Assembly: GCA_012730105.1 (NCBI GenBank)
Contig: JAAYBJ010000092.1
Coordinates: forward strand, 1-39,782
Reading direction: 5' to 3'
Length of the DNA stretch: 39,782 nt
Source: Candidatus Hydrogenedentota bacterium
GTDB taxonomy: Bacteria > Hydrogenedentota > Hydrogenedentia > Hydrogenedentales > CAITNO01
Shown here: one piece after another, positions 1 to 32,008 of the stretch
How positions within the stretch are numbered: position 1 is the stretch's first letter
How the letters are laid out: each line of letters opens with the position of its first letter
Translations under genes and position numbers: made by a program
The notes under the pieces: model-generated
The model's database searches: none
Seen by the model: the letters and a program-made list of their open reading frames with translations, nothing else
What the model was told of the DNA's origin: nothing

Positions 1-182
1 GTCCTGAATTCATCAGAAGTTCCTTTCCTTATCGAAAAGGGAAAAGTATGGTGTAAATGCCCCAGCGATTTGAAATCGAAAAATTTTTTCATGGCGCTTT
101 GATACTATAAATAAAGGCCGAAACGGCTATATCGAAAAAATTAACCGGACACTAGTGACTCTGAATATTTTCTTTCTGGGGG

Positions 183-200
183 GGGTACGACCCACGTTAG
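183..200 (-). repeat. 18-bp inverted repeat, copy A (partner at 3587-3604)
   Basis: Read on the minus strand this is CTAACGTGGGTCGTACCC. It matches CTAACGTGGGTCTTACCC at 3587-3604 on the plus strand at 17 of 18 bases, so the two copies are inverted about 3.4 kb apart. Each contains a small hairpin (GGGT, three-base loop, ACCC). Copy A includes the TAA stop of the Gfo/Idh/MocA gene. The rest of 1-196 holds no gene that I can support; it has only AT-rich stretches and a short hairpin near 69-82 followed by an A/T run. Confidence 0.55.
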
Positions 201-1561
201 ATGATATTCCATTCTTTGCGGCAGGACCGGGTAATCATCTTTGCCGCTTCCTCATCGCCGACAATCTGTTCCGCCGTTGCGTCCCAGTTAATCACCCGTT
301 TCAGTTGGGCGGCAACGTTGATCATATGCGCAATGGTATCGCAGCGTATCGCCATTTCCACGGGGCATACGGTTTCCTGGCGGGACTTCACGCAATCCAG
401 AAAATTACGGACATGCCCGCTGGACGCGTACACCCGCTCCGCGTCCGGTTTAAATTCCTCTTTCCACAATTTCTGATCGCTGGCATAGAAGGTACCGAAT
501 TTGAAATCCCCTATCCAGCCCTCGGTACCGTGAAACACCACGCCGTCGCCATCCTGCCATCGTTTAGGATAATACTGCATAACGACGTCCTTAGCGGTTT
601 CCATGTCCATCATGTGCAGTTTCACACCATTTTCATAATCGCACATGACATCCCAGCGTTCCAGCGTCCGGAAGATGCCTTCCGTGGGCACACTTCCCGA
701 GCCTTCATAGCGAATCGGACTGGTGTGGTCGGTCCTGTTTCCCCACTGGGCAACACCGAGGGGATGAATGGCGCACCCGGCCACGAAACCGAGAGAGGTT
801 TCGGGGCAGTGGTAGCCGCCCCACGGCGTGCAGCGATCCGAGGTATAGGGCACCATGGGCGAAGGCCCCTGCCACATGTCGAAGTCAAGATCTTCGGGCA
901 CAGGGATCTCTTCCGTGGAACCATAGGGCTTGCCGTTATACTGGTTCACGTCGTTCCGCACGTTGCGGCACCAGACGTCTATCCGGTCCACTTTACCGAT
1001 ATACCCGTTGCGGACCAATTCCACCATTTTCGGGTACAGCGACTCAGACCGGTATTGCGTGCCAAACTGGAAGATGCGTTTGTTGTCGTTCACGGCGCTC
1101 CGCAGGAGTTTGACCTGTCCCAGATCCAGCGTAAGCGGCTTCTGGCAGTAGATGTCCTTGCCTGCACGCGCGGCGGCAATGGCCATGGGCGTGTGCCAGT
1201 TGTCATGGGCGCCGATAAAGATGGCATCCACATCGGGATTAGCGATGACTTCACGGAAATCAGCATAGACTTTCACACTATCACCGCCGCCGTAATGCTT
1301 GTTGAGTTCTTCCGCCATGGCAACGCGCCGGGAAGTGTAGGCGTCACAGACCGCCACCACCTGTGCGTCCGGATATTGCGTGAGCCAGTTCTTGTGGTAA
1401 TTGCCGATATTGCCGCAGCCGATCAATCCCACGTTAATGCGGTTGCCGGGCGCGTCCTCGCCGAAAACCGTCCGGGGCACGATAGCCGGCATGCCCAGTG
1501 CGGCGGAAACCGCCAGTCCACTCTTGATAAAACCGCGTCTGCTGATGTTGTTCTTTCGCAT
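197..1561 (-). CDS. Tat-exported Gfo/Idh/MocA family oxidoreductase
   Basis: A 454-residue NAD(P)-dependent sugar oxidoreductase of the Gfo/Idh/MocA family. The N-terminus has a twin-arginine signal (SRRGFIK, residues 7-13) followed by a small hydrophobic stretch, so export of the folded enzyme with bound cofactor is predicted. The Rossmann GxGxxG is at residues 48-53 (GCGNIG). The family Lys, usually in EKP, is at 141 as QKP. The C-terminal alpha/beta domain contains a tryptophan- and glycine-rich segment near residues 230-270 that is common in exported PVC-type members. The start is supported by a purine-rich AGGAAAGG upstream. It is probably the last gene of a minus-strand set after a cupin and a second oxidoreductase, 126 bp downstream of the latter. 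The substrate is unknown. Oxidation of a glycoside at C3 is an attractive inference because a DUF1080 gene lies nearby. Confidence 0.9.
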   Translation of the reverse strand: MRKNNISRRGFIKSGLAVSAALGMPAIVPRTVFGEDAPGNRINVGLIGCGNIGNYHKNWLTQYPDAQVVAVCDAYTSRRVAMAEELNKHYGGGDSVKVYADFREVIANPDVDAIFIGAHDNWHTPMAIAAARAGKDIYCQKPLTLDLGQVKLLRSAVNDNKRIFQFGTQYRSESLYPKMVELVRNGYIGKVDRIDVWCRNVRNDVNQYNGKPYGSTEEIPVPEDLDFDMWQGPSPMVPYTSDRCTPWGGYHCPETSLGFVAGCAIHPLGVAQWGNRTDHTSPIRYEGSGSVPTEGIFRTLERWDVMCDYENGVKLHMMDMETAKDVVMQYYPKRWQDGDGVVFHGTEGWIGDFKFGTFYASDQKLWKEEFKPDAERVYASSGHVRNFLDCVKSRQETVCPVEMAIRCDTIAHMINVAAQLKRVINWDATAEQIVGDEEAAKMITRSCRKEWNII

Positions 1562-25292: not shown

Positions 25293-26153
25293 ATGTTTAC
25301 CCTATTCCAGACCATCCTGCTGACCATCTGCACTTCTTTCCTGCCGCCTGCGACTGCGCACGCAGGTGTTTTCCAGAACGCAGAGGCCATCCGTGCGCTT
25401 GTTCGTGCCTATCCAGATTACCTGGAGGCAAGTGATAAACCGAATACCGTTTTGTGGAAAGACGGCACGAAAATGGTGTTTGACGATGGCGTCACAAAGG
25501 CTGATTTTGAGAACATGCTCAACCATGCCAGCCTCAAGGACCAGATGTCCACGCCTTATCCGCATTCATGGCCTGAACACCCGCCCGCGAGAAACGAAAG
25601 CCCCGGCCGCGCGCGAAACGAGGATTTCTTTCGCAAGATGTATGGAGACTCTCCGGATAGCGTTAAAGAGAACCTGGTGCCCGTAGAATGGGGAAACGAC
25701 AGAACGGTTCAGTTTACCAGGATTAACGGCGCCGCAAAAGCCCTGCGCAGTGTGCGATCCGAACTCAATGACTTACCCGGGCCCTCGCAACGTTATGTAT
25801 CCCGACCCCTGGGCACGTTTCACTGGCGGGAAATATCCGGCACGAAACGGCTCAGCATGCACAGTTATGGCGCGGCCATTGACTTTCAACTTCCCGCGGA
25901 GGTATATCGCTATTGGAAATGGGACATCCATAAATCAGAGGATGTCCCCGCTTATCCGGAATCCATTCTCCGGGATTCCTTACTCAGCCAGGTCGTGGCG
26001 GTTTTCGAAAAGCATGGCTTTATTTGGGGAGGCAAATGGCACCAATACGACACCATGCACTTCGAATACCGCCCGGAACTGGCGGGACAAGATACTTACA
26101 TGGGCTTCGCCCACAACCCAACGCCTGATAGTATTCGTGCTCGTAACTCTTGA
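25293..26153 (+). CDS. Secreted M15 family peptidase (D-Ala-D-Ala carboxypeptidase/endolysin-like)
   Basis: 286 residues with a Sec signal peptide (1-24, ending AHA). The zinc site of family M15 is present: His190 and Asp197 in MHSYGAAIDFQ, and His256 in MHFEYRPEL, with GGKWH just before it. The enzyme would cut peptidoglycan stem peptides in the periplasm. AGGA seven bases before the ATG supports the start. The catalytic domain should end near residue 264. The last residues (DTYMGFAHNP and beyond) are encoded by the first copy of a 34-bp repeat, whose second copy lies downstream at 26270-26303, so the C-terminal tail appears to derive from a repeat element. It is convergent with the third sulfatase. 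Confidence 0.88.
   Translation: MFTLFQTILLTICTSFLPPATAHAGVFQNAEAIRALVRAYPDYLEASDKPNTVLWKDGTKMVFDDGVTKADFENMLNHASLKDQMSTPYPHSWPEHPPARNESPGRARNEDFFRKMYGDSPDSVKENLVPVEWGNDRTVQFTRINGAAKALRSVRSELNDLPGPSQRYVSRPLGTFHWREISGTKRLSMHSYGAAIDFQLPAEVYRYWKWDIHKSEDVPAYPESILRDSLLSQVVAVFEKHGFIWGGKWHQYDTMHFEYRPELAGQDTYMGFAHNPTPDSIRARNS
26087..26120 (+). repeat. 34-bp direct repeat, copy 1 (inside the M15 gene)
   Basis: It matches 26270-26303 at 32 of 34 bases and carries the hairpin TGGGC-TTC-GCCCA (26101-26113). In the peptidase frame it encodes DTYMGFAHNP. The copies are 183 bp apart. Confidence 0.8.
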
Positions 26154-26274
26154 TCGTGATCAAAAATCTACAAATGGGATTCGATTACGAAACACGAGAC
26201 AAAAGCCTCGTGCTCACAAAAGCACGAACAACATGCCGAACTTCTTATTTTCATAGACCTTATCGGCCGATAAG
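26150..26274. repeat. Cluster of palindromes between the two 34-bp repeats
   Basis: Four inverted repeats lie here. TTGATC-GT-GATCAA is at 26150-26163. CACGAG (26193-26198) pairs with CTCGTG (26207-26212). TCGTGCT (26208-26214) pairs with AGCACGA (26221-26227), mutually exclusive with the previous hairpin. CTTATCGGCCGATAAG at 26259-26274 is a perfect 16-bp palindrome. The region is 3' of two convergent genes and encodes no supported protein. Confidence 0.75.
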
Positions 26275-26303
26275 ACACTTACATGGGCTTCGCCCACAAC
26301 CCA
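26270..26303 (+). repeat. 34-bp direct repeat, copy 2
   Basis: The second copy of the unit at 26087-26120, with two mismatches and the same TGGGC-TTC-GCCCA hairpin (26284-26296). It is not in a supported gene and ends 61 bp before the sulfatase stop. Confidence 0.8.
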
Positions 26304-26364
26304 GTTTTAAATTCCGGGGTGACCAGTACCCGTCAGACTCCCCGTATCCACTCCGAAGGACCCA

Positions 26365-31765: not shown

Positions 31766-32008
31766 AGTTTAACCCTTTTCATTTCCGGGGACAGCCGTTT
31801 ATGAGCCTTTTGTCTTCACAGCGTACAATGGGAACAAGCATGTTGCATCGCTCGAATGTGTCAGGAATGACGTATAAGCCTTAGGGTTTATTCGCATGCC
31901 CGGCACACTGAAGCGCGAACAACATACAATTTATCGCAACAGTATGCGTTTCAATCACCTTTAAATGCGCCATTAAATCGATCTCCGCTCGCCGGTTTAT
32001 CCCTGTCA

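Follow-up and report, generated by a model that had tools for sequence, protein, structure and literature searches.

At positions 26087-26303 of the window (the whole 39,782-nt stretch analyzed here, contig 36 of a genome of 5.63 Mb in 343 contigs), a palindrome-dense region of 217 bp overlaps the 3' end of an M15 peptidase gene. What kind of sequence is it: a mobile repeat, a regulatory RNA, or a useful extension of the peptidase? Based on the analyses below, we read the region as a single member of a dispersed family of palindromic elements that are composite and non-autonomous, with a probability of about 0.8; in kind, it is a REP/REPIN/MITE-like mosaic. Its parts are listed in Table 1.

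Table 1. Positions of the repeat parts and associated genes in the window.
Feature	Position	Strand	Remarks
M15 peptidase ORF, 286 aa	25293..26153	+	last ~21 residues repeat-encoded, from about 26087
Direct-repeat copy 1, left end (LE) of element 1	26086..26120	+	repeat search, LE consensus
LE consensus match, element 1	26095-26119	+	stem TGGGC (26101-26105) / GCCCA (26109-26113)
Module B, the cargo core: TATTCGTGCTCGTAACTC .. GATTCGATTACGAAACACGAG as an inverted array	26132..26198	+	
Half REP-like palindrome AAAAGCACGAACAACATG (consensus AAAGCGTGAACAACATAC)	26215..26236	+	complete in sister element type
Element 1, right end (RE), with CTTATCGGCCGATAAG at 26259-26274	26236..26279	+	
Direct-repeat copy 2, left end of chained truncated element 2	26269..26314	+	LE 26278-26302
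Further truncated shell LE	158..203	-	CTAA gives TAA stop of oxidoreductase-like gene 197-1561 (-)

Repeats, palindromes, and folding in the window

The original prediction described two near-identical 34-bp copies, each with a TGGGC-TTC-GCCCA hairpin, and this is borne out: the direct repeats at 26086-26120 and 26269-26303 are 35 nt long and 94% identical at a spacing of 183, and both contain the hairpin. The perfect palindrome and the pair of competing hairpins named there are also real. The 16-bp CTTATCGGCCGATAAG is the sole perfect palindrome of at least 8 bp listed in the region, and the hairpins TCGTGCT/AGCACGA (26208-26227) and CACGAG/CTCGTG (26193-26212) are mutually exclusive because they overlap. 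What did not stand is the picture of two copies flanking a single cassette, as each copy is the left end of its own element. The region has 3 hairpin centers, where its dinucleotide shuffles average 0.3; at least 3 centers are found at 6 of 264 other window positions. Folded as RNA, the region is stable (-51.5 kcal/mol, z = -3.6).

Element 1 begins with an LE preceded by 9 nt that resemble the tail of a right end (GACAAGATACTTA vs GATAAGGTACTA) and carries inverted TCGTGCTCGTAA/CGATTACGA arrays as cargo. Nearly all of module B (26135-26197) matches the cargo of other shells at 78%, and the module also matches arrays adjoining four-helix-bundle genes in relatives. A sequence model built for right ends, R1, has the RE of element 1 as its only match in the window (31.8 bits, E 5e-9), one of 49 in the genome. 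Element 2 starts directly behind this RE, and its LE is followed by AGTTTTAAATTC, resembling the near-empty shell at locus L352 (CAACCCAGTTTTGAATTCTTG); it is apparently a truncated shell, the start of an empty one. Elsewhere in the window, another REP-like palindrome (the core of the sister type described below) lies at 31903-31930 without a shell, and the oxidoreductase-like gene (454 aa) takes its TAA stop from the CTAA of a shell LE.

The repeat family in the window genome and its relatives

Copies were gathered by sequence searches and by place, in the window genome (G000) and in related genomes including Candidatus Hydrogenedentota UR.bin34 (G002) and RA.bin58 (G003), both of the window's genus, and CSSed162cmB_64 (G010). 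The search for the repeat in its own and related genomes had been proposed as a check on the original prediction, and it returned dispersed copies in G000, G002, and G003; the family is multi-copy in all three. Within G000, the 217-bp query gave 24 matches, the best full copy 58, and a sister type, which contains a REP-like inverted pair GTATGTTGTTCACACTTTAGTGTGC .. GCACGCTAAAGCGTGAACAACATAC, 47. R1 found right ends at 49 places in G000, 40 in G002, 33 in G003, and 10 in G010; G001, G004, and G020 gave no match. G001 belongs to the same genus, yet unlike G000, G002, and G003 it yielded neither the shell RE nor the sister-type element.

A constant shell around interchangeable cargo

Comparison of the copies reveals a shell consisting of a left hairpin (LE, consensus CTAA-CG[T/C]GGGC-NTT-GCCC[A/G]C-AACCC) and a conserved right segment (RE, AACTTCTTGTTTTTTATAG..GATAAGGTACTA), which together enclose interchangeable palindromic cargo. 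An LE lies within 750 nt in 56 of the 87 REs fetched. Each shell end adjoins a CTA(A) motif, which is a consensus at both ends and seldom forms an exact pair, and shells are often chained head to tail via a common CTA(A), an RE being followed at once by another LE. Stem pair 7-19 of the LE covaries as C-G or T-A (C-G 39, T-A 6, C-A 9, T-G 1; Fisher p 0.001), while the right-end hairpin is, by energy, not better than shuffles overall (39/69). For the TAA of the LE as a stop codon, 15 frames are open versus 9 and 7 among 99 sites, an enrichment that is weak because there are only seven uses.

The 55 sorted shells hold nine mutually unrelated kinds of cargo or are near-empty. Their interiors range from 5 to 355 nt, the lower figure being that of L352, where 5 nt separate LE and RE. 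The nine clusters have 2-13 members each: the GATTACGA arrays (the window type), the ATGGGACCTATG arrays, the REP pair GTATGTTGTTCACACTTTAGTGTGC .. GCACGCTAAAGCGTGAACAACATAC, the GGGACTGCC/GGGACAGTTCCC pair, the CCCAGGGTTGCGG/CTACCCTGAAAGGGTT set, CGTCATTCCCGCG with the ACGAAATAGCC pair, and CGTCATTGCGAGCGAAGC, GGAGTGCGCAAGC, and ACCACGAATGGACACG. The inverted-repeat score exceeds all shuffles in eight of the nine. Cargo modules evidently exist independently of the shell; REP cargo without a shell was found in Verrucomicrobiaceae, and CGATTACGA arrays without a shell in G020.

Shells of a second type, CTACGCTTCGTCCGGGACTTCGCCCGG.., number 43 in G000, 19 in G002, and 22 in G003; this type is often chained behind the first type and also precedes palindromes. 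Contigs C130, C157, C193, C229, C265, C275, and C302 of G000 end 50-300 nt past it (CTACGCTTCGTCCGGG..). Since many contigs end just beyond this shell type, a longer near-identical repeat probably follows and breaks the assembly.

Origin of the peptidase tail

The M15 ORF is translated through direct-repeat copy 1 (..RPELAGQDTYMGFAHNPTPDSIRARNS*), with its stop inside the repeat, while residue 259 is the last one covered by the Pfam Peptidase_M15_4 match; the first copy does, as originally proposed, form a C-terminal tail beyond the catalytic domain. Homologues from six relatives (44-57% identity) can be aligned only up to query residue 264-267. After HFEYR, these proteins have 6-10 residues before their end versus 26 in the window protein, and the repeat starts at codon 265-266 of the ORF, coinciding with the ends of the homologues. 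The homologues end where the repeat begins; therefore, the last ~21 residues of the window protein are repeat-encoded. The closest homologous tail (RPELAGPQK*, in G016) has RPELAG in common with the window protein. This comparison is between genera, with no exact DNA-level empty site obtained.

Thus, the tail is absent from homologues, which is the opposite of the shared, conserved tail that would speak against the original prediction, and the proposal that a mobile element inserted at and extended the gene's 3' end is supported by both the tailless homologues and the many genomic copies. Derivation of the tail from a repeat insertion is well supported by these alignments, and the insertion at the M15 3' end appears to have replaced the gene's last few codons. 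An alternative is that the peptidase gained its tail as an adaptive extension, for which the 26 in-frame codons past HFEYR could be cited. We consider this very improbable: the residues stem from sequence that is intergenic at other places, and the homologues dispense with them. Translation of the tail is incidental, and the tail itself is probably a neutral by-product of insertion. For annotation, this is a warning that in these genomes repeats encode the C-terminal residues of some proteins. At another M15 3' end (L053, on contig C5 of G020), the last codons, CTTGTCCACAACCCAGAA, are close to the shell LE, although G020 gave no shell RE match; this likeness may reflect chance or an independent insertion.

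Genomic context and the RNA-switch question

The original prediction also offered the alternative hairpins as a switch of transcription or RNA decay, placed between two convergent genes. According to the ORF list, the window copy does sit between two convergent genes, and the stable fold, the mutually exclusive hairpins, and three copies whose interior is the same in G002 and G003 would all suit a functional RNA retained for a regulatory role, as a terminator, a decay block, or a switch between alternative hairpins. However, among 25 copies with long flanks, 14 have unidirectional, 6 divergent, and 5 convergent neighbors, with none inside a gene. The neighbors were assigned with a simple ORF rule; it missed the M15 gene of the window copy because that gene overlaps the repeat. 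This spread of intergenic copies over all neighbor orientations gives no support to a switch particular to convergent pairs. The interior sequence, which a dedicated switch would need to conserve, varies among copies. A search of Rfam gave no family match, its single hit of 14.5 bits falling far below the gathering score, and we set aside a riboswitch or other known structured RNA. Altogether, the switch lacks support and a functional RNA is an improbable explanation, although secondary effects of the element on mRNA ends are possible.

Comparison with known palindromic repeats

The element resembles REP/BIME/REPIN sequences in that it is palindromic, is scattered over intergenic sites, often comes as inverted pairs, and is frequently located at gene ends, where it sometimes supplies the stop codon. 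Its palindromes are 20-40 bp long and high in copy. The GTAG/CGTC tag of REPs is not found at the hairpin foot of the shell LE, which is CTAA-CG, while some cargo of other copies (CGTCATTGCGAG..) starts with CGTC. As in REP/RAYT (TnpA-REP) systems (PMC3733652), this genome has palindrome-flanked RAYT genes; none was found flanked by the shell itself. Unlike REPs and REPINs, the element has a separate conserved shell around its palindromes, and its core in the window consists of 6-13 bp units arranged as an inverted array.

REPs located at coding-region ends or providing stop codons have been described, and so have REPs inside host palindromes, with GTAG-15 in A. variabilis, GTAG-23 in T. roseum, and CGTC-1 in H. 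neapolitanus as the nested cases (PMC3733652). These nested REPs share with our element a palindromic dimer within a constant palindromic surround, but there each surround has one REP family, whereas here one surround has nine unrelated cargo classes. With one constant shell and at least nine swappable cargoes, all palindromic, the element is more cleanly modular in design than REP mosaics in the literature found, and one shell with many unrelated cargoes is new as far as that literature shows; we found no paper on Hydrogenedentota repeats.

In being short, non-autonomous, and multi-copy, the element is also like MITEs, the PATEs of IS200/IS605 type, and Rickettsia palindromic elements; palindromic MITEs, including the last of these, are known to form in-frame gene fusions (PMC10969869). 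Unlike these, LE and RE are unrelated sequences without terminal inverted repeats, no clean target duplication was seen at the copies (the flanking CTA(A) could belong to the element), and no parent insertion sequence with these ends was found. Of the IS200/IS605 features, the left hairpin and CTA(A) context are present, the right hairpin does not rise above shuffles, and no complete IS with these ends was found. The CTAAC foot also brought integron attC sites into consideration. They were rejected by inspection: single copies are scattered among unrelated genes, and the ends are without R''/R' pairs.

Vehicle or landing pad

How would such a shell spread? One mechanism is that a transposase acts on it in trans, with a single-stranded hairpin as the substrate, and moves it now or did so in the past, inserting it beside CTA(A)-like targets; the likeliest candidate is a Y1/HUH enzyme (RAYT/IS200-like) resident in the genome. 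The cargo would be gene-less arms of other inverted-repeat elements, namely REP pairs of RAYT elements and, in the window, the arms of a four-helix-bundle (IVP) element. Two resident RAYT genes sit between inverted copies of a GGGACAG-type REP-like palindrome, and a gene-less relative of this sequence occurs as shell cargo. At the ten Y1 loci of the genome, one shell lies nearby, 1.4 kb away, and a second-type left end lies about 0.5 kb upstream at another locus. Shell ends flank the Y1 gene at none of the ten (a different cargo class does), and a check of the Y1 and IVP loci for shell ends and cargo found no complete element that could be an autonomous parent. An empty site for one G002 copy was sought in G001, G003, and G000, where the flanks were unalignable across the site. 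Movement as single-stranded hairpins by a Y1 enzyme is something we infer at odds of perhaps one in three. As a separate observation, a RAYT-like ORF at L027 (3588-4292, minus strand, contig C233 of G000) contains in-frame GGGTGCCCAACCCCCCGT-type palindromic repeats (GCPTPRG) mid-ORF.

The system poses a direct question: does the shell act as a vehicle that takes palindromes on board, or as a landing pad that attracts them? In the landing-pad model, which is the main rival, the shell is no vehicle but an old, fixed LE-RE repeat family with a near-empty form of ~75-105 bp; REP-like elements and array elements, each independent, inserted into it later, all at the same spot. Near-empty shells such as L352 do exist, and the nesting of REPs in host palindromes of three species (PMC3733652) offers a precedent. 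This model is a real contender, although we would not bet on it, because cargo classes with many members in shells (13, 9, 8, 8) would each need repeated insertion at the same position; joint spread of shell and cargo would be simpler.

A link to four-helix-bundle (IVP/S23) genes

The window core also recalls 23S intervening sequences (IVSs) and free-standing IVP/S23 genes, in which the stem is made of inverted arrays. IVSs have been proposed to be mobile, and in Coxiella, tandem heptamers precede the S23 ORF of the IVS (PMC4990558). Among IVP (PF05635) genes in the window genome and its relatives, 21 of 27 have inverted short-tandem-repeat arrays, each above all 146 displaced controls. The subfamily with the motif GNGK..FFEIARGSAM has 6-bp arrays, and runs of at least 4 units accompany 5 of its 6 genes versus 0 of 38 other IVP genes, by a measure picked after the pattern was seen. 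In G002, the arrays beside a gene of this subfamily are TCGTAATCG/CGAGTACGAGCACGA hairpins, and in G033, arrays of the same type enclose it. Since window-like arrays flank one IVP subfamily in relatives, the window core looks like gene-less arms; unlike 23S IVSs and IVP elements, it lies outside any rRNA gene, and its loop is without a four-helix-bundle ORF between the arms. The window genome's own gene of this subfamily has CGATAGC arrays rather than GATTACGA, which counts against a current partnership.

A further reading, which we offer as speculative and rather unlikely, is that free-standing IVP genes form the coding center of a REPtron-like system, the second of its kind, whose protein would maintain or move inverted arrays with units of 6-7 bp, and that gene-less arms like the GATTACGA core of the window are miniature derivatives of it, loaded, along with RAYT-type palindromes, into a common shell. 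If true, this would give a role to a very widespread protein family lacking an assigned function. The IVP-array link itself suggests a testable role for four-helix-bundle proteins and, as far as the literature found shows, is new; our search found no paper on IVP genes between inverted arrays. The IVP genes at loci L038-L041, L178-L199, and L232-L245 lie between inverted 6-7 bp tandem arrays, and the array units vary by gene (GGGTCTA, GGGATAG, AGGGACC, CGATAGC, and TCGTAATCG).
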